Shown piece by piece: positions 33,147 through 63,316 of a stretch of DNA of 63,497 nt (positions within the stretch are counted from its first letter, which is position 1; every line of letters begins with the position of its first letter). A program made the translations under genes and the position numbers. The notes beneath the pieces are model-generated. The model was not told where the DNA came from. It did no database searches and saw nothing but the letters and a program-made list of their open reading frames with translations. Origin of the DNA: Lysobacteraceae bacterium CU05-9 (GTDB lineage: Bacteria; Pseudomonadota; Gammaproteobacteria; Xanthomonadales; Xanthomonadaceae); contig SWJS01000003.1 of assembly GCA_007556525.1 (NCBI GenBank), positions 1-63,497 on the forward strand. The letters are read 5' to 3'.

Positions 33147-33204
33147 CGCGGTCGCGCATCGTGCTGAAACGCCGCGGGATGGTGAGTCCGGCGGCGTTTT
33201 TTGT

Positions 33205-33308
33205 GGGTGTCACAATGGTGACAAAACGATGCAAAATTCCCCGTTTTGGTGGTGAAACGGAACCATTTCGCAACCAAAGTGCTGCGTTTTGCCATAATTG
33301 TGACACCC
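33205..33308. repeat. 104-bp nested inverted repeat after bfr
   Basis: The 12-bp outer arm GGGTGTCACAAT (33205-33216) pairs perfectly with ATTGTGACACCC (33297-33308). The next ~16 bases pair imperfectly (ACAAAACGATGC with GCTGCGTTTTGCC). An inner hairpin CCGTTT-TGGTGGTG-AAACGG lies at 33241-33260. No ORF is inside. It could be a MITE-like element or a large bfr 3' structure. Confidence 0.6.
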
Positions 33309-33319
33309 GGAGATAGGAT

Positions 33320-33387
33320 GGCGTTACAAACGCATCACCCTGCATCGCAAGTCATCAGTTTGGTTCAGCGCGTTACGTTTGTAACAC
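33320..33387. repeat. dispersed ~65-bp palindromic-ended repeat (copy A)
   Basis: It begins GGCGTTACAAACGCATCACC and ends GTTACGTTTGTAACAC. The reverse complement of 53060-53117 matches over nearly its whole length, apart from a nine-base gap. The ends are themselves inverted repeats (GTTACAAACG / CGTTTGTAAC). The 33147-33409 gap otherwise holds only the nested repeat before it. Confidence 0.7.
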
Positions 33388-33409
33388 CCGTCACGCGACG
33401 ACAAGGGAG

Positions 33410-52204: not shown

Positions 52205-52795
52205 TTATTTCGGCGCGACCCATTTTTCGATGTCGCCTTTGTGGAAGGGGCCGATTTTTTGCTTGATCAGGCGGCCATCTGCATCGATCAGGACGCTATA
52301 AGGCAGGACGCCCCTCGGGTTGCCGAGACTGACGCTGGCATCGCGCGGCCCGACCTCGTCATACAGCTGTGGGTACTTCATGTTGAAGCGTTCTACGAAT
52401 TGCTTCGCTGCGTCCGGTTCGTCGAGAGCGATGCCCAGTACTTCGATGTCTGTTTGGTTGGTGGCGAACTCGACGAGTTCCGGAATCTCCTCGATGCACG
52501 GTCCGCACCAGGTGGCCCAGAAGTTCACGAGTGTCGGCTTCTTTATCGCGGTGCGGAGTTCGTGCTCGTTGCCGTCGAGATCCTTGAGTTTCAGGTTCGG
52601 AATGATCTCGCCTTCTTTCGCGACTTCCAGTCCGGGCGGCGTGGCAGGTGCGGTGGCCTCCATCGCTTTCTGCAGCGCCTTGTTGCCGGTGTCGGTTTCG
52701 TAGATCGGGTTGCGGCCGTCTGTGGCGTAGAGCACGGCGAGCGCGAGAGCGACGCCGGCGGCGGCGAACCAGAGAGTTTTTGTGAGATTTCGCAT
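52205..52795 (-). CDS. TlpA-family thioredoxin-like disulfide reductase
   Basis: 196 residues from ATG 52795 (MRNLTKTLWFAAAGVALALA); the frame runs upstream into the palindrome array. A single membrane anchor precedes a thioredoxin-fold domain with VNFWATWCGPCIEEIPELVE (WCGPC active site) and RGVLPYSVLIDADGRL (cis-Pro). It is periplasmic and probably accepts electrons from DsbD, whose gene is the next upstream on the same strand. It likely reduces apocytochrome or other envelope thiols. Confidence 0.92.
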   Translation of the reverse strand: MRNLTKTLWFAAAGVALALAVLYATDGRNPIYETDTGNKALQKAMEATAPATPPGLEVAKEGEIIPNLKLKDLDGNEHELRTAIKKPTLVNFWATWCGPCIEEIPELVEFATNQTDIEVLGIALDEPDAAKQFVERFNMKYPQLYDEVGPRDASVSLGNPRGVLPYSVLIDADGRLIKQKIGPFHKGDIEKWVAPK

Positions 52796-53059
52796 GGTCA
52801 TCATTGTCGGCGCTGCGCCGCGGGGTGTCAAAGCCGCGCGCGTGACCACATTTGTGGTCAATGGCCACATTTGTGGTCACGGACGAAGAGTTGATCAATA
52901 CGCGCGGTTACATTTGTAACCACCGGAAACAATTGTTTCCGCGGGCGAAAGCCTGTTCGCCGAACGTGTCCACAATTGTGGATTTTGGCTACATTTGTGG
53001 ACCAGCGGGAGATGGGCCGTCAGCCGTGACCACAATTGTGGTCAATGGCCACATTTGTC

Positions 53060-53117
53060 GTGTTACAAACGTAACTGGCTGAAGCAAACCGATGCAAGGT
53101 GATGCGTTTGTAACGCC
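53060..53117. repeat. dispersed ~60-bp palindromic-ended repeat (copy B, inverted)
   Basis: Its reverse complement begins GGCGTTACAAACGCATCACC and ends GTTACGTTTGTAACAC, matching 33320-33387 except for a nine-base gap and a few substitutions. It is embedded in the palindrome array. Confidence 0.7.
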
Positions 53118-53243
53118 CCGCGATGGTGAGGGTGTTCGTGGCGCAGCAACAATTGTTGCTGACAGAAACATTTGTTTCTGCGGATACGTTTGTAGCCAGT
53201 GGACACGATTGTGTCCGTGGCGGGAGATCTCGCTGCGGCGGTT

Positions 53244-53275
53244 GTTGCAAATGTCACAAATGCGACATTTGCAAC
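53244..53275 (-). terminator. 12-bp stem immediately after dsbD
   Basis: GTTGCAAATGTC pairs perfectly with GACATTTGCAAC around an 8-base loop, one base past the dsbD stop codon. It could block 3' exonucleases or end transcription, but there is no T-tract. It is also the strongest hairpin of the palindrome array. Confidence 0.5.
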
Positions 53276-53276
53276 A

Positions 53277-55529
53277 TCACTTGGTGAGGGCGTTGCGGAC
53301 GGTGGCGGGGGTGAGGATCGTGGGGAGCACGACCGGGTCGCCGGAGCCTGCGGGGTAGTAGACGTACAGGGGGACGCCGACGGCGTTGAAGGATTGCAGG
53401 TACGCGGTGAGGGAGTCGTCGACGTTCGTGTAGTCGCCGACCATGTAGACCGTGCGCGTCGAGGTCAATAGCGAGCGGAAGTCGGGTTTTGAGAGGACGG
53501 CGCGTTCGTTGATCTTGCAGGAGATGCACCAGTCGGCGGTGATGTTGACGAAGACGGGCTGGCCGGCGGCGCGGAGAGCGGCGATGCGCGAGGCGTCGAA
53601 GGGGATGTGTTCGCCGGTGACGGGAGCGGTGGCGGACGCGGAGATCAGGGGCGTGCGGGCGATGGAGAGTACGGGCCAGGCGACGGCGATGAGAGCGGCG
53701 AGGGCGAGAACTTTGAGAGCGCGGGAGTCGACACGGTTGGCGCGGGTCCAGGCCCAGGCGGCGAAGGCGATGAGCAGTGCGGCGACGAGACACCATGCGG
53801 CGGCGGTGGAACCACGTTGCTGTGCGAGCACCCAGACGAGCCAAATGGATGTCAGATACATCGGGAACGCCATGAATTGCTTGAAGGTTTCCATCCAGGG
53901 GCCGGGTTTTGGAAGGATACGAGCGACCGCAGGGAAGAAGCCGATCAACAAGAATGGCAGTGCCAGGCCGAGGCCGAGCGCGAGGAAGACCAGCAGCGCT
54001 TCGAGGGTTGGTGCAAAAAACGCCCACGCCATCGCCGCTCCCATGAACGGTGCGACACACGGGGTGGCCACGACGACTGCGAGGAGGCCAGTGAAGAAGT
54101 CAGAGCGCCACGTCGATCCGGTCGTCAGGGATTGGCCAAAACCTAGCCATTTTCCGCCCGCATACCAGACGCCGCTGAGCGAGAGGCCGAGTGCAAAGAT
54201 GAGGAGGGCGAGCGCGGTGATGACGAGCGGTTGCTGCATCTGGAACGCCCAGCCGACCGAGTCGCCTGCGCCGCGTAGTGCGAGGAGGAGGCCGCCGAGT
54301 GCGAGGAAGCTCGCCATGACGCCGGCCGTGTAGGCGAGTGCATGTTTGCGCGCGTCGCCGCCGCCATGTTGAGCGATGGAGAGGGCTTTTAGGGACAGCA
54401 CCGGCAGCACGCACGGCATCAGGTTGAGGATCAGGCCGCCGAGCAGCGCCATCAACAGCGCGAGACCCATCGAGATGGAGGATTTAGCGGGAGCCGCGGC
54501 GGGAGTGACGGGCTTCGCGACGGTCGGGTCGACGGGTTTGACGGCCGCGGTGGCGAGGACTTCCGGCGCGGTTTCCGCGCCGGGGGCGGCGACGGTGTTG
54601 GTGGCTTCAGGGGATGTTGCATTTGTAACATTTGCAACATTTGCAACAGCGGCCGGAGGAGGAGTCACCGCCGACGCGGCGGGCAGTGAGACGGTGAAGG
54701 ATTGCGACATCGGTGTGTAGCAGATCCCGTTTTCCTTGCAGCCTTGGTAGGCGACGGTCAACTTGAGCGGGCCGGCGGCGGTGGAGGTGCGGTGCAGCGG
54801 GATGTCTAAATCATGCGCGCCAAAATACACCGGCACACGACCGAACTCCGGGTCATCGAACATACGGGCGGTGGGCCAGGAAGGTTTTCCGAGGACGACT
54901 GACGGTGTGTGGGAGGTGACGCGGATCTGGCGTTGGTAGAGGTAGTAACCGTCGACGGCGACGAGCGAGATGCGCAGTCGGTCCGCGCCGACGGGCGTGG
55001 CGGTGATCTGGAATGCGCGGTCGGCGGGAAGTGCCTGGTCCGGTGCGGCGATGGGCTTGCCGAACAGGTTGGTGGGCCCGGCAGCGGCGACGGGGAGCGG
55101 CACGCGAAGAGTGCGCGTTTGTGGTGGGTAGCAGACACCGACGTCGGCGCAGCCTTGGTAGCGGATGGTGAATTCGGCGGTGGGGCCAGCGTTGGAGCCG
55201 AGGATACCGACGCGCAGACGGTCGCGGTAAGTTTCGACGTCGCCGAAGAATTCGTCGTGAGCCTTTTTGCCGGGGGGGATGTCGAGAGACGCGTTGGAGA
55301 GGCCACTCACAGAGGTGAGCTTGAGAGAGTGGCGATATAAGTAGAAGCCCTTAGAAATCTGCCAATTGAGCGCGACCTCGTCACCGGAGACGGCGTCGGC
55401 GGACAGGCGGAACACCGAATCCACGGGCGGCAGGTCGGCGATGGAGACTTGTGCGAGCGAGCGTACGGGCGCGGCGAAGACGAGCAGCGCGAACAAAAAC
55501 CCCGCAACACGGGAAAGGATGGATGGCAT
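53277..55529 (-). CDS. dsbD: thiol:disulfide interchange protein DsbD
   Basis: 750 residues. A signal peptide (FLFALLVFAAPVRSLAQ) is followed by a periplasmic alpha domain with Cys in GCADVGVCYPP and a related repeat at GCKENGICYTP. An Ala/Thr/Val-rich linker leads to eight membrane helices with LMPCVLPVLSLKALS and VVATPCVAPFMGAA (paired redox Cys). The C-terminal thioredoxin domain has NITADWCISCKINE. It moves electrons from cytosolic thioredoxin to periplasmic partners such as the TlpA-like protein next to it. It has two alpha-like repeats, so is longer than the E. coli protein (about 565). Confidence 0.94.
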   Translation of the reverse strand: MPSILSRVAGFLFALLVFAAPVRSLAQVSIADLPPVDSVFRLSADAVSGDEVALNWQISKGFYLYRHSLKLTSVSGLSNASLDIPPGKKAHDEFFGDVETYRDRLRVGILGSNAGPTAEFTIRYQGCADVGVCYPPQTRTLRVPLPVAAAGPTNLFGKPIAAPDQALPADRAFQITATPVGADRLRISLVAVDGYYLYQRQIRVTSHTPSVVLGKPSWPTARMFDDPEFGRVPVYFGAHDLDIPLHRTSTAAGPLKLTVAYQGCKENGICYTPMSQSFTVSLPAASAVTPPPAAVANVANVTNATSPEATNTVAAPGAETAPEVLATAAVKPVDPTVAKPVTPAAAPAKSSISMGLALLMALLGGLILNLMPCVLPVLSLKALSIAQHGGGDARKHALAYTAGVMASFLALGGLLLALRGAGDSVGWAFQMQQPLVITALALLIFALGLSLSGVWYAGGKWLGFGQSLTTGSTWRSDFFTGLLAVVVATPCVAPFMGAAMAWAFFAPTLEALLVFLALGLGLALPFLLIGFFPAVARILPKPGPWMETFKQFMAFPMYLTSIWLVWVLAQQRGSTAAAWCLVAALLIAFAAWAWTRANRVDSRALKVLALAALIAVAWPVLSIARTPLISASATAPVTGEHIPFDASRIAALRAAGQPVFVNITADWCISCKINERAVLSKPDFRSLLTSTRTVYMVGDYTNVDDSLTAYLQSFNAVGVPLYVYYPAGSGDPVVLPTILTPATVRNALTK

Positions 55530-55965: not shown

Positions 55966-55993
55966 AAATCTGAAATCTGAAATCTGAAATCCG
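55966..55993 (+). repeat. heptamer tandem repeat between groES and groEL
   Basis: Three exact AAATCTG units and a fourth AAATCCG follow one another. A short Gly/Cys-rich hairpin-prone stretch (AGCCTTCGGCCTCCGAG) comes before the groEL ribosome site. No coding role. Confidence 0.8.
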
Positions 55994-58053: not shown

Positions 58054-58710
58054 ATGGTATTGAATTTTGACGAAACTATTGGAGGTAAACTCTCCTCTAA
58101 TATACCCAAGGAATTGTGGTTGGCATTGGAGCAGTACATACCGTCTGCAATTGAAAAGGCGGAAAGACTCGGTGAAAGCTTTTACGAAGGTCATCGTTCC
58201 ACAGCGATTGGACTAAATCGGCACCTCTTGCTAAACGAGGGTTTCGCACGTGCAATGTGTGATGCTGGAATCCCTCACACTCAGGTGCGAGGAAATTCCA
58301 TTGTTTGTGGAAGAATTGGTGTGGTTAACATTGCTCGCATTCACATGCCGCACATCAAGTGGGACAATTCGAGGCGCAGTAAGTCAAAGGTGACTCTGTG
58401 CGCGCCGAATGTCACAGCCAAAAGGCTCAGGACCGGAGACCTATTTGATCCATCTTTATATACGCCACAGATGGAGCTGACCGTTTTCGTAGTCACTGAG
58501 TGTGGGGGAGGTTGGTTCAGAACACACGTTGTAGTACCTGATGAAAAAATGGATCTGAAATCACCGCTCTTCCGAGAAGAGTTGAATGTTTTTCTACAAC
58601 GTTATCAACCTGTAAGAGACGTGATCGACATTGCTAAGCCTAAGCTGAAAGCGTCTGTTCGTAAAACTAGCGGAAGTGATACAAACTCCGACGATTCGAC
58701 GGATCAGTAA
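58054..58710 (+). CDS. hypothetical protein paired with an XRE-ImmA/IrrE regulator
   Basis: 218 residues. The N-terminal helical part has KELWLALEQYIPSAIEKAER and GHRSTAIGLNRHLLLNEGFA. The middle has GIPHTQVRGNSIVCGRIGVV followed by NIARIHMPHIKW. ELTVFVVTECGGGWFRTHVV is the central strand region, and the tail is Ser/Asp-rich. No family is recognised with confidence. It is A+T-richer than the core genes and lies two bases before the regulator gene. By analogy with COG2856-type modules it could be the effector that the ImmA-type protein controls. Confidence 0.65.
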   Translation: MVLNFDETIGGKLSSNIPKELWLALEQYIPSAIEKAERLGESFYEGHRSTAIGLNRHLLLNEGFARAMCDAGIPHTQVRGNSIVCGRIGVVNIARIHMPHIKWDNSRRSKSKVTLCAPNVTAKRLRTGDLFDPSLYTPQMELTVFVVTECGGGWFRTHVVVPDEKMDLKSPLFREELNVFLQRYQPVRDVIDIAKPKLKASVRKTSGSDTNSDDSTDQ

Positions 58711-58712
58711 CC

Positions 58713-59936
58713 ATGACAATTACTACTCGATCAATTGGCAACTTCGTCGCCGAACGCATGGTCCAGGCACTCGATGCTAGGGGCATGTCTTCAGTTGAAC
58801 TCGCAGCTCGAATGGGAGTTACAGCCAATACCATTAGTCGGTGGAAGACAGGGAATAATCCACCTAGTGCAAGTATGCTTGAAACTATGGCACTTGCGCT
58901 TCGCGTCAATCCCGAATGGTTAACGCGACCTTTGGCGAAAAAGCTCTCAAATCCGTATTTCCGCGGAAGCGTGGCTCAGATGAAGCGGGAACGGAGCTTG
59001 CTTGGGGCGAGGTTGAGTTGGCTCGAAGAAGTTGCGAGTCAATTAGAAGATTACGTCGACTATCCAAAGGTAAATTTGCCGAACACCGAGTTTCAAAAGC
59101 TTTCTGAAATAACGGATAGATGCATTGAAGACATGGCTGAAACTTGTCGCGAACTTTGGGGATTAGGGGATGGCCCAGTTGGCGATCTGTTACTGATTCT
59201 TGAGAACAACGGAGTCATTGTTTCGCGTGAAGAGACGGGCATTTCGCGAATTGAGGGTCTGTCGGCCTGGACATCGAGTGGTCGACCGCTCGTATTGCTG
59301 AGTTCAGATAAGGGGAATGCTTTTCGAAGTCGTTTTGACGCGGCCCACGAGCTCGGGCATCTGGTTCTTCATAAGCAAATTCCTGCTCCAGGAGACTCGT
59401 CTAAACACAAAGTTATGGAGTCTCAAGCACATAGATTCGCAGGTGCATTTCTGCTGCCGGCCGAAAGTTTTGTTTCGGAAGTTACGGCTCCAGTCACATT
59501 GCACGGTCTGTTGTATCTTAAGCAGCGTTGGGGTGTGTCAGTTGCAGCAATGATCCTTCGACTTCGCGCATTAGGATTGGTAGGAGAGGAGGATTATCTT
59601 CGACTAATAAAGCATCGCTCTGCTAAGTGGGGGGTAAGGAAAGAACCCTTGGATGATGAGCGATCTGTTGAAGTACCTCGGTTGATGAATAGAACGCTGG
59701 ACTTGTTGGTAAGTGAAGGCGTACTCAAGCCAGATGCCATTTCGGATCTGCTCGGAATATCAACTCGAGATATTGAAAGCCTTATGGGGCTCCCTTTTGG
59801 CACATTATCTAGCAAAGTCGCCGAAGTGGTTGAGTTACAACTACGATCTCGCAGAAGTGAAAGTGGTCCAATTGAAGATAGAGGACAAGCCAGTTCGAAC
59901 GTAATTGTTGGAGACTTTGGGTCTAGGAAAAAGTAG
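58713..59936 (+). CDS. XRE-family regulator with ImmA/IrrE metallopeptidase domain
   Basis: 407 residues. An N-terminal helix-turn-helix (MSSVELAARMGVTANTISRW) is followed by a linker and a zinc peptidase domain with FDAAHELGHLVLH (HExxH) near 210 and ESQAHRFAGAFLLPAE, the third-ligand segment typical of ImmA/IrrE. It probably binds the palindrome at 58012 and cleaves a repressor or its partner protein. Such two-gene modules occur in prophages, ICEs and defence islands, which fits the type I restriction genes that follow. Confidence 0.9.
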   Translation: MTITTRSIGNFVAERMVQALDARGMSSVELAARMGVTANTISRWKTGNNPPSASMLETMALALRVNPEWLTRPLAKKLSNPYFRGSVAQMKRERSLLGARLSWLEEVASQLEDYVDYPKVNLPNTEFQKLSEITDRCIEDMAETCRELWGLGDGPVGDLLLILENNGVIVSREETGISRIEGLSAWTSSGRPLVLLSSDKGNAFRSRFDAAHELGHLVLHKQIPAPGDSSKHKVMESQAHRFAGAFLLPAESFVSEVTAPVTLHGLLYLKQRWGVSVAAMILRLRALGLVGEEDYLRLIKHRSAKWGVRKEPLDDERSVEVPRLMNRTLDLLVSEGVLKPDAISDLLGISTRDIESLMGLPFGTLSSKVAEVVELQLRSRRSESGPIEDRGQASSNVIVGDFGSRKK

Positions 59937-60279
59937 CTCCAAGTATGGTGGAATGACGGGCTTAGGGTAAGTTCTATTGCGAACAAAGGTAGGGGGCCAG
60001 CGTAGCGCGACTCGCAGTTACTTGTCACGGGCAGCTCGATTTTGAGTTGAATCCCTTGGCGACCGAAAAAGTTCTCAAGTCAAATGACACCGGTTAAATA
60101 CTCCGCCTATCTCTGAGAAAAGCAGGGTATATTCTATTTGGACACCGAGTGTTCGCTACTCAGACTGGGGGTATTGGTCAGCTCAGCGCCACGTTCGTGC
60201 AGTGCGGGATCGAGAGGAGTTTGCGCCGAGCGATCAAACCTCCCCCACAGCAATGACTCACGCAAAGGATACAAGTACG

Positions 60280-60333
60280 ATGACGCAGACTGATTCCATC
60301 ACAAACCTATGCTGTGCTGACCTACAATTTTGA
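60280..60333 (+). pseudogene. possible 5' remnant of hsdM
   Basis: A 17-codon ORF with a good ribosome site (AAAGGA, about 10 bases upstream) reads MTQTDSITNLCCADLQF then stops. MTQTDSITxxLxNL is the usual start of HsdM type I methyltransferases. An internal deletion joining the hsdM start to sequence just before hsdR would give this. The rest of 59937-60343 shows no gene. The reading is tentative. Confidence 0.35.
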
Positions 60334-60343
60334 GCCTTTGCAG

Positions 60344-63316
60344 ATGACGACAACTGAGAGCCAAATCGAGCAAGAACTAATCTCCAAGCTGGAAGATCTC
60401 AAGTACACATATCGCCCGGATATCCGTGACCGCACCGCATTGGAAAAGAACTTTCGCCAGCAATTCGAGGTGCTCAATCGTGTTCAGCTCACCGATGCCG
60501 AATTCGCACGCCTGCTGGAATCCATCGTCACCCCGGATGTTTTTGCCGCAGCCAAGCACCTCCGTGAGCGCAACAGCTTTGAGCGCGACGACGGTACGCC
60601 ACTTTATTACACGCTGGTCAATATCAAGGATTGGTGCAAGAACAACTTCGAAGTAATTAATCAGGTGCGTCTGAGCACCGACTACAGTCACCATCGCTTT
60701 GACGTGATCCTGCTCATCAACGGCGTACCCGTTGTGCAGATCGAGCTGAAAGCGCTGGCCATCAGTCCGCGTCGGGCGATGCAGCAGATCGTCGATTATA
60801 AAAATGACCCCGGCAATGGCTACAACAAAACGCTGCTGTGCTTTTTGCAGATTTTTATCGTCAGTAACCGCAGCGACACGTGGTACTTCGCCAACAACAA
60901 CAGCCGCCATTTCAGCTTTAACGCTGACGAGCGTTTCTTGCCGCTGTATCAATTTGCCGGTGAAGATAACAGCAAGATCACTCATCTAGACCGTTTTGCC
61001 GAGGCGTTCCTCGCCAAATGCACACTCGGCCAGATGATTAGCCGCTACATGGTACTTGTGGCCAGCGAGCAAAAGCTGTTGATGATGCGCCCTTACCAAA
61101 TCTACGCCGTGAAGGCCATTGTCGAGTGTATTCACCAGCATTGCGGTAATGGCTACATCTGGCACACGACTGGCAGCGGCAAGACACTGACGTCGTTCAA
61201 AACCTCGACCTTGCTGAAAGACAACCCCAACATCGATAAATGTCTTTTCGTGGTGGATCGAAAAGATCTTGATCGGCAAACCCGTGAGGAATTCAACAAG
61301 TTTCAGGAAGGCTGCGTGGAGGAAAACACGAACACCGAAACGCTAGTGCGCCGCCTGCTTTCCGACGACTACGCCGATAAGGTGATCGTCACTACAATCC
61401 AGAAGCTCGGTCTGGCGCTTGACGGCAACAACAAGCGCAATTACAAAGAGCGCCTGGAGCCACTGCGCAACCAGCGCATAGTGTTCATCTTCGACGAATG
61501 CCACCGCTCGCAATTTGGTGAGAACCACAAGGCCATCAAGGAGTTCTTCCCTAACGCACAATTGTTCGGCTTCACAGGCACACCCATTTTTGAGGCAAAC
61601 GCCAGCGCTCAACAGATTGAAGGCCAGCAAGCCAGCTACAAGACCACCGCGGACATCTTCCAGCAACAGCTCCACGCCTACACCATCACCCATGCCATCG
61701 AAGACCGCAACGTGTTGCGTTTCCATATCGATTACTACAAGCCGGATGGCAGTGTAAAGTCCAAGGCAGGTGAAGCGTTGGCGAAAAAGGCCATTGTCGA
61801 AGCCATCCTTGCCAAGCACGACGCCGCCACCGCGGAGCGCAAATTCAACGCCGTGCTTGCAACAGCCAGCATCAACGACGCTATCGAGTATCACGCATTA
61901 TTGAAAACCGTGCAGGCGGAAAAGCAGGCAGAAAGTCCAGACTTTCAACCGCTGAATGTTGCCTGTGTGTTTTCTCCGCCCGCCGAGGGCAACAAAGACG
62001 TGCAGCAGATTCAGGAAGACCTGCCGCAAGAAAGGGCCGACAACGAAGAAGCGCCTGACGAAAAGAAGGCCGCGCTGAAGGCCATCATTGCCGACTACAA
62101 CGCCCAGTTTGGCGCTAACCACAGCATTGGCGAGTTCGATCTCTATTACCAGGACGTGCAAAAGCGCATCAAAGATCAACAATACTCGAATGCCGATCTG
62201 CCGCACGCACAGAAAATCGACATCACCATCGTGGTGGACATGTTGCTCACCGGATTCGACTCCAAGTTCCTGAACACGCTCTACGTGGACAAGAACCTCA
62301 AATATCACGGCCTGATACAGGCATTTTCACGCACCAATCGCGTGCTGAACGATAGCAAGCCCTATGGCAACATCCTCGACTTCCGCCAGCAACAAGAGGC
62401 GGTAGACACTGCCATTGGCCTCTTCTCCGGCGAAACTAGCAAACCCGCCAAGGAAATCTGGCTGGTGGAGCCTGCCAAAGAAGTTATCCAGAAGTACGAG
62501 CAAGCGGTCAAAGCCATGGAAAAATTCATGACAGCTAAAAATCTCGTCTGTGAACCCGAGGCCGTCTACAACCTTAAGGGTGACATCGCCCGAATAGAGT
62601 TCATCAATCGCTTCAAAGAAGTGCAGCGTCTGAAAACCCAGCTCGATCAATACACCGATTTGGATTCAGAGCAGAAGTTAAAGATCGATGCCTTGCTACC
62701 GCAAGACCAGTTGCTGGGCTTTCGCAGCACTTATCTGGAAACCGCCAAACGCCTGAAGGAAATCCAGGATAAAGAAGGCAACGACGCCCAGCCTGAAGTG
62801 CAGCAACTCGATTTCGAGTTTGTACTGTTTGCCAGCGCGGTTATTGATTACGACTACATCATGGCTTTAATTGCTCGCTATGCCAGCCAGACACCGGGTA
62901 AGAAGAAAATGAGCCGCGAGCAGCTAATTGGCCTGATTCAGTCCGATGCCAAGTTTATCGACGAGCGCGATGACATTGCCGAATACATCAGCACGCTGGA
63001 AGAAGGCAAGGCGCTGGACGAGAAAGCCATCCGCGAGGGCTTAGAAGATTTCAAGGCCGACAAGCACGCGAAGGTGCTGAACGACATTGCCGCTAAACAC
63101 AGCCTAGAAGTTGCGGCCCTGAAAACCTTTGTGGAGACCATCTTGCGCCGCATGGTGTTTGATGGCGAGCAATTGAGTGAGCTGTTCATGCCGCTGGAAT
63201 TAGGTTGGAAGGCGCGTACCAAGGCAGAGCTAGCACTTATGGAAGAGTTGATTCCGCTGCTAAAAAAACGTGCCCAAGGGCGTGAGATTTCGGGCTTGGG
63301 GGCCTATGAGCAATAA
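60344..63316 (+). CDS. hsdR: type I restriction endonuclease R subunit
   Basis: 990 residues from ATG 60344 (MTTTESQIEQELISKLEDLK); the frame opens at GTG 60314. The nuclease domain has Asp120 (HHRFDVILL) and Glu134-x-Lys136 (VQIELKA). The helicase has Walker A TTGSGKT at 275-281, DECHRS at 384-389, FGFTGTPIF and VDMLLTGFDSKFLNTLYVDK with AFSRTNRVL. It translocates and cuts DNA unmodified by the cognate HsdM/HsdS. It overlaps the hsdS start by 11 bases. Confidence 0.96.
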   Translation: MTTTESQIEQELISKLEDLKYTYRPDIRDRTALEKNFRQQFEVLNRVQLTDAEFARLLESIVTPDVFAAAKHLRERNSFERDDGTPLYYTLVNIKDWCKNNFEVINQVRLSTDYSHHRFDVILLINGVPVVQIELKALAISPRRAMQQIVDYKNDPGNGYNKTLLCFLQIFIVSNRSDTWYFANNNSRHFSFNADERFLPLYQFAGEDNSKITHLDRFAEAFLAKCTLGQMISRYMVLVASEQKLLMMRPYQIYAVKAIVECIHQHCGNGYIWHTTGSGKTLTSFKTSTLLKDNPNIDKCLFVVDRKDLDRQTREEFNKFQEGCVEENTNTETLVRRLLSDDYADKVIVTTIQKLGLALDGNNKRNYKERLEPLRNQRIVFIFDECHRSQFGENHKAIKEFFPNAQLFGFTGTPIFEANASAQQIEGQQASYKTTADIFQQQLHAYTITHAIEDRNVLRFHIDYYKPDGSVKSKAGEALAKKAIVEAILAKHDAATAERKFNAVLATASINDAIEYHALLKTVQAEKQAESPDFQPLNVACVFSPPAEGNKDVQQIQEDLPQERADNEEAPDEKKAALKAIIADYNAQFGANHSIGEFDLYYQDVQKRIKDQQYSNADLPHAQKIDITIVVDMLLTGFDSKFLNTLYVDKNLKYHGLIQAFSRTNRVLNDSKPYGNILDFRQQQEAVDTAIGLFSGETSKPAKEIWLVEPAKEVIQKYEQAVKAMEKFMTAKNLVCEPEAVYNLKGDIARIEFINRFKEVQRLKTQLDQYTDLDSEQKLKIDALLPQDQLLGFRSTYLETAKRLKEIQDKEGNDAQPEVQQLDFEFVLFASAVIDYDYIMALIARYASQTPGKKKMSREQLIGLIQSDAKFIDERDDIAEYISTLEEGKALDEKAIREGLEDFKADKHAKVLNDIAAKHSLEVAALKTFVETILRRMVFDGEQLSELFMPLELGWKARTKAELALMEELIPLLKKRAQGREISGLGAYEQ

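Follow-up and report, generated by a model that had tools for sequence, protein, structure and literature searches.

An eight-unit palindrome array between tlpA and dsbD belongs to a dispersed, likely REP-like repeat family in Lysobacteraceae bacterium CU05-9

Introduction

What is a dense cluster of palindromes doing between the genes tlpA and dsbD, and how did it come to be there? The cluster lies in the genome of Lysobacteraceae bacterium CU05-9, in a stretch of 63,497 nucleotides of contig SWJS01000003.1 (assembly GCA_007556525.1), the whole of which we refer to as the window. A cluster of this kind could be a set of protein-binding sites or operators, palindromes made in place, recombination sites, or copies of a repeat, and we have weighed these readings against the organization of the sequences, their distribution in the genome, and their occurrence among relatives.

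Results

The array spans positions 52842 to 53276 and adjoins the dsbD stop codon. Both flanking genes are on the minus strand, with dsbD terminating at 53277 and tlpA starting near 52795; the most upstream possible tlpA start, at 52870, is inside the array. By hmmscan, the dsbD product has DsbD_N, DsbD_TM, and thioredoxin-like domains, and the tlpA product matches the redoxin, AhpC-TSA, and thioredoxin families. Thirteen octamer-like cores are packed into the ∼435 bp array, ten of them conforming to ACAWWTGT and the others reading ACGTTTGT, ACGATTGT, and ACAAACGT; outside the array, ACAWWTGT occurs only twice in 62,997 bases of the window. Even 14-bp dyads with at most one mismatch number eight in 52843 to 53275, whereas 1000 dinucleotide shuffles average 0.82 and never exceed 4; control 433-bp stretches taken elsewhere in the window, one every 50 bases, have no more than three each. 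The first-pass annotation had described 13 to 15 palindromes of 14 to 18 bp with arms that remain self-complementary. The palindromes are nearer eight, however, and the arms pair over at least 3 bp at only nine of the 13 cores, the other four having 2, 0, 0, and 1 bp. That dyads exceed their random frequency is borne out both in the array, where they lie beyond the shuffles, and genome-wide, where the motif is enriched.

The repeating unit is larger than the single palindrome that had been taken for it, being an imperfect palindrome of usually ∼39 bp with two ACAWWTGT octamers exactly 19 bp apart and GC-rich outer arms. Octamer pairs with this spacing were collected from the window and from 47 stretches of the same genome chosen by octamer matches, among the matches listed. 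Of the 53 candidates, 46 were grouped by their inner 11-nt spacer into subfamilies alpha (16 units), beta (11), gamma (7), delta (5), and epsilon (7), and the remaining seven were left ungrouped. Alpha, beta, and gamma units share the general form GCRG-HH-ACAWWTGT-DD-(7 nt)-HH-ACAWWTGT-DD-CYGC. Octamer ends are nearly invariant over the 46 units, with every first octamer starting with AC and ending with TGT. When the two letters on each side of an octamer are read outward, 367 of 368 are other than G, and every one of the nine A/C/T pairs is represented. There are two additional layouts, T9, in which the same octamer is present in three copies stepped by 9 bp, and type I, which is ∼100 bp long with an octamer near each end, ∼82 bp apart. 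Because non-palindromic spacers (for example, AACCACCGGAA and TGCTGACAGAA) and outer sequence are shared by the members of a subfamily, we conclude that the units have been copied.

Delimited using the sequence, its ORFs, the octamer list, the dyad test, and matches to a sequence model (R1, described below), the array is composed of eight units of at least five subfamilies and a further class, eta, from one dispersed repeat family. It opens with a beta-type two-octamer unit with GTGACC arms (52842 to 52880, plus strand; octamers at 52848 and 52867), followed by an alpha unit (52904 to 52942, plus strand; octamers at 52910 and 52929) that is the top-scoring R1 match genome-wide, and by a delta unit (52966 to 53004, minus strand; octamers at 52972 and 52991) with GTCC outer arms that pair with one another. 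A second GTGACC beta-type unit (53026 to 53058, plus strand) has no right arm where the next element starts; this is an eta element (GTGTTACAAACGTAAC...GATGCGTTTGTAACGCC, 53060 to 53117, unstranded), of the same kind, on comparison by eye, as one at 33314 to 33396. The gamma unit, with CAG arms (53143 to 53181, plus strand; octamers at 53149 and 53168), includes the 19-bp tandem CAGAAACAATTGTTGCTGA, and fused to it is a beta unit (53180 to 53218, plus strand) with octamers ACGTTTGT at 53186 and ACGATTGT at 53205. The final component, a T9 (zeta) element, TGTTGCAAATGTCACAAATGCGACATTTGCAACA (53243 to 53276, unstranded), is directly beside the dsbD stop.

Related elements are present elsewhere in the window, in a convergent gap at 33147 to 33409, where a type I element of ∼100 bp with ends GGGTGTCACAATGGTGACAAAACG ... 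TTGCCATAATTGTGACACCC (33205 to 33310, plus strand) is adjoined by the second eta element (33314 to 33396, minus strand). This type I element sits directly after a terminator-like hairpin with a T run and is followed by the eta element, and by eye both type I and epsilon elements are frequently downstream of terminator-like T runs. The epsilon hairpins, of the form GTGTC-ACAATTGT-GGC-n5-GCC-ACAATTGR-GACA (at L117:3404-4272 and in stretches L086, L097, L098, and L112), include G-T wobbles, and a mismatch recurs in them where the octamer ends. Stretch L096 (1371-2113) has two similar shortened type I elements ∼667 bp apart, with a 118-residue reading frame lacking a Pfam match between them.

The window has other features of note. 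A perfect 7-bp tandem, AAATCTG, in 3.7 copies lies between the Cpn10 and Cpn60 chaperonin genes (55966 to 55991). The window end (58054 to 63316), probably a defense region, codes for a 218-residue ORF with no Pfam match, a 407-residue protein with HTH_3 and Peptidase_M78 domains (IrrE-like), and a 1000-residue type I restriction R subunit (HSDR_N, EcoR124_C).

The genome analyzed (2,347,053 bp in 15 contigs, 99.97% complete by tool estimate) was scanned against a control: ACAWTTGT is found 126 and 123 times on the two strands, versus 21 and 18 for the reversed sequence, and CACAWTTGTG 45 and 44 times, versus 1 and 3 for its control. The comparison genomes are all distant relatives, none of the same genus being in the sets searched, and among these the longer motifs are rare or absent. 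GGNNACAWTTGTNNCC is present 30 and 33 times here, whereas 23 of 394 other family genomes have one to three matches each and the rest have none; ACAWTTGT-N11-ACAWTTGT is present 19 and 17 times here, with one match each in two of 368 other genomes of the class; and TGTCACAATTGTGRCA is present 19 and 16 times here and in none of 39 relatives. R1, which models alpha, beta, and gamma unit sequences, has 68 both-strand matches corresponding to 36 distinct places in 20 loci; as it was built from copies that it finds, 34 of these places are training copies, and the other two are a further gamma copy and a single-octamer alpha/beta hybrid. None of 19 relatives matches R1 (the best 130 to 150 candidates scored per genome). 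The delta, epsilon, T9, and type I elements add to the 36 places. Searches of phage and plasmid collections returned no similar DNA at an E value of 1e-5, and viral contigs have no matches to two motif patterns.

We next consider the covariation of the arms. Over the 34 alpha, beta, and gamma units, pairing around each octamer gives 43 double-changed cells, compared with 19.0 ± 3.4 in shuffles, none of 500 shuffles reaching this number; these between-subfamily shuffles ignore relatedness, but slid controls likewise fall far short of 43. When both octamers are instead placed in one long hairpin, the number of double-changed cells is again 43, versus 27.4 ± 3.6 in shuffles. The proportion of paired cells is 78.1% for the single long hairpin and 83.8% for two small hairpins, such that both fit, and single-sequence folds favor the long hairpin in 38 of 46 units. 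Pooled within subfamilies, however, 28 of 92 octamers have perfect arms, compared with 23.9 ± 2.7, with 440 of 5000 shuffles as high; only beta, a mixed group, is above its shuffles (10 versus 5.5 perfect; 67 of 5000). The reported covariation around a fixed core thus holds between subfamilies and disappears when arms are pooled within them. Since arms within subfamilies pair no better than shuffled ones, the apparent covariation in the window comes mostly from the presence together of several copied subfamilies that differ in their half-sites. It had been taken to indicate that dyads are selected or generated and not copied, but the shared non-palindromic spacers show copying.

The alpha units present a more complex picture, in that the inner dinucleotides are near-constant (TT in 14 of 16 and AA in 12 of 16), whereas at the outer positions AA and TT are combined in all possible ways, with TA seen once. 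With the outer AA/TT mixed and the inner near-fixed, some alpha arms look as if they have been corrected to perfect dyads, which is what would be expected if the palindromes were made in place by quasi-palindrome template switching alone, with no spread of copies. This would leave unexplained both why 20 loci have the same unit with the same spacer and why that unit is absent from the relatives searched, and we regard production in place alone as very unlikely, although template switching in quasi-palindromes is a possible added contribution to arm variation. The free assortment of alpha outer half-sites with a near-fixed inner module could also be read as the shuffling of modules by a site-specific recombinase crossing over at the octamers, and in three of 135 octamers the two half-sites clearly come from different subfamilies (an alpha/beta hybrid at L105:1713 and gamma/type I hybrids at L113:1309 and L127:1598). 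Such hybrids are nonetheless rare and could stem from slippage between 8-bp repeats. The genome has no match to a serine recombinase and three matches to tyrosine recombinases (two full-length and one partial), and the two full-length proteins are presumably XerC and XerD. We regard a recombinase as a very unlikely explanation.

The dsbD-tlpA locus provides information on how the array arose. The gene order dsbD, tlpA, aroQ, accB recurs among relatives; 15 of 80 relatives' loci have dsbD with at least one of the other genes, and in 13 of those 15, tlpA follows dsbD. Measured from the dsbD stop, the farthest-upstream candidate start of tlpA lies at −4 to 53 nt in 12 of the 13 and at −155 nt in the remaining one; if the start closest to the tblastn match is used, the distance is 4 to 161 nt. 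The equivalent distances in the window are 406 nt (from the start at 52870) and ∼481 nt (from the start near 52795). ACAWWTGT is absent from the 400 bp after dsbD in all 15 relatives' loci. With a gap of no more than 161 nt in relatives and no octamer there, the simplest reading of these sequence comparisons is that this lineage acquired the ∼435 bp of units. Absence of the array from relatives had been named in the first-pass annotation as grounds for abandoning its interpretation; the absence is real, but we read it as lineage-specific gain, given the enrichment of these units throughout the genome.

Two copies of T9 are within coding sequences and in frame. One is in dsbD itself (54613 to 54650, minus strand), in an inter-domain linker (...VANVANVTNATS...), where it codes for VANVANVTNAT. 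The linker is longer here than in nine readable relatives, but these linkers are too variable for insertion of T9 to be proven. The second, in a protein of 143 residues (L099:12126-12557), specifies VTIVTNVTNVT within a segment rich in proline.

Most clusters of units, in contrast to these copies, are outside genes. Among the 45 clusters are 36 intergenic ones for which both neighbors were called; three others are flagged as coding (one of which merely overlaps a called gene start), and six have a neighbor beyond the stretch. The 36 resolved clusters comprise 19 between convergent genes, 13 between co-directional genes, and four between divergent genes, and convergent pairs make up only 7 of 49 gene pairs in the window (Fisher P = 2.6e-4); these orientation counts are estimates, as the gene caller missed some genes. 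Clusters are often just after stop codons, and the four divergent clusters could be in contact with promoters. Among 30 neighbor proteins scanned of 73 listed, 27 have Pfam hits of mixed kinds, none a transposase, and we found no function common to the neighbors of other arrays.

This distribution bears on whether the array is an operator cluster controlling tlpA, for example through a BlaI/CopY-type repressor with the core TACANNTGTA. The array is just upstream of tlpA, and ACANNTGT, given as the core of the BlaI/CopY box in an excerpt of PMC7253601, is a dyad core that the two have in common. The arms, location, and neighbors do not fit, though: TACANNTGTA accounts for only nine of 92 octamers, the base beside ACA is T in 45 of 184 half-sites, the other arrays are mostly between convergent genes or behind genes, their flanking genes have no common function, and the relatives' dsbD-tlpA loci are without the octamer. 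We therefore reject an operator array on location, neighbors, and flanking bases, and consider it highly unlikely. The statement in the first-pass annotation that this is not a normal operator cluster is well founded, as the units are dispersed and mostly intergenic with functionally mixed neighbors.

In another reading, the octamer pairs bind a chromosome-organizing or nucleoid-associated protein and are maintained by selection for binding and not by mobility. The constancy of the octamer and of the 19-bp spacing while arms vary would be consistent with this, as would the avoidance of G at the flanking letters and the uneven distribution of the 20 loci among contigs (P = 0.01 by Monte Carlo simulation; 12 of the 20 are on 17% of the genome, in contigs picked after seeing the distribution). 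The likely dif site is at C1:473833, one mismatch from the pattern used (L128, G000), and neither R1 nor TGTCACAATTGTGRCA has a place in the surrounding part of C1 (311 to 684 kb), which contains single octamers only, among the matches listed, and one GGTTACATTTGTTACC at the contig end. The units are thus not focused on the terminus, and terminus sites like matS are rejected, the dif-like site falling in a stretch without units. The spacers and outer sequence shared in subfamilies show copying, the insides of two genes are an odd place to select sites, and there is no candidate protein. We consider maintenance by binding alone to be unlikely.

A RAYT is not detected in the genome (no matches to PF01797, and none to NF047646 with two candidates scored), nor is a Y1 transposase; no mobilizing enzyme was identified in the searches for Y1, RAYT, and serine recombinase proteins. 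The tags of known REPs are also scarce, GTAG being in the flanks of one of 46 units, GTGG of five, and CGTC of two. With these tags missing and no RAYT found, we do not file the units as GTAG- or CGTC-REPs.

The units are predicted to form hairpins. The z score of the predicted fold of the whole array is −11.3 on the plus strand and −10.0 on the minus strand, and mean predicted values for units range from −2.4 to −5.4 by subfamily. The 46 two-octamer units do not resemble intrinsic terminators, none having five or more T residues within 15 nt of either end. The array has no Rfam match at the gathering score, and we judge the sub-threshold matches to mir-2032 (E = 0.008) and RsmY (E = 0.09) to be chance.

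Discussion

We consider it likely that the array is an eight-unit stack of a dispersed REP-like (BIME-like) family that is absent from the relatives searched and was spread by an enzyme. The units are best read as a new REP-like family that lacks a RAYT, although we do not claim that the octamer motif itself is unpublished. They have the attributes of REPs in the broad sense, being copied, restricted to a lineage, and predicted to form hairpins. Excerpts of PMC2817692 and PMC3733652 describe REPs and BIMEs as intergenic, located 3′ of genes or between convergent genes, stacked, restricted in lineage, and with several families per genome. The units here are similarly intergenic, stacked in composite clusters, and mainly between convergent or co-directional genes. 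The first-pass annotation had set the array apart from REPs, but it resembles them in location, unit size, stacking, and restriction to a lineage.

There are also differences from the known classes. The GTAG REPs and BIMEs with RAYTs, such as those of Stenotrophomonas and Xanthomonas (likely of the same order), are short imperfect palindromes in many copies whose constant part is a tetranucleotide beside the stem, whereas here it is a core octamer, paired at 19 bp across subfamilies. The usual REP copy number is >100 in the excerpted text of PMC2817692, and the units here are fewer if units and not octamers are counted. CGTC REPs, which include the rickettsial palindromic elements, are apparently without a dedicated transposase and have been reported inside genes, according to an excerpt of PMC3733652; they thus provide a precedent, within what that excerpt covers, for the lack of a known enzyme. 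The family resembles them in both respects and differs in sequence and architecture.

Miniature transposons and overrepresented octamers offer further comparisons. The type I element (∼100 bp) is like a MITE in having terminal inverted repeats around an inner part, but no parent transposon was seen for it, and the 39-bp units would be unusually small as MITEs. HIP1 is distributed all over genomes, within genes as well, whereas the octamers here are within mostly intergenic composite units. An excerpt of PMC4390886 describes HIP1 as an over-represented palindromic octamer of cyanobacteria.

How such a family might work can be sketched from the sequence features and by analogy. The ACAWWTGT pair, with its 19-bp spacing in subfamilies whose arms differ, is likely what a common protein recognizes, one that would bind dyads or process strands. 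Modeling of the folds suggests that units behind dsbD may be transcribed as hairpins, which could protect the upstream dsbD message or slow the polymerase. Intercistronic REPs elsewhere have these effects, and by analogy the hairpins may loosen the coupling of dsbD and tlpA, acting as an RNA barrier or brake before tlpA. Template switching across quasi-palindromes during replication would perfect some arms and flip modules, giving rise to arm variants; excerpted literature describes homogenization of inverted-repeat arms in this way.

A bolder proposal is that ACAWWTGT is the cut-and-join site of a non-RAYT enzyme that sets arm modules between octamer copies. The units would then be a new class of miniature palindromic mobile element, with the octamer pair at 19 bp as the unit of heredity, that splits operons and enters reading frames in phase by way of the 9-bp repeats of T9. 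We regard this as rather unlikely, and favor the more general interpretation of a REP-like family spread by an enzyme.

GTAG-type REPs are explained by a tagged hairpin and a RAYT, and here is a REP-like population in which neither is detected. The retention of one octamer pair, always 19 bp apart, by several subfamilies with different arms points to a protein that recognizes it, and the 39-bp site is a ready-made bait for finding that protein. The array splits dsbD from tlpA, which are tightly placed in 13 relatives, and the locus is thus a natural test of how intercistronic palindromes influence gene coupling.
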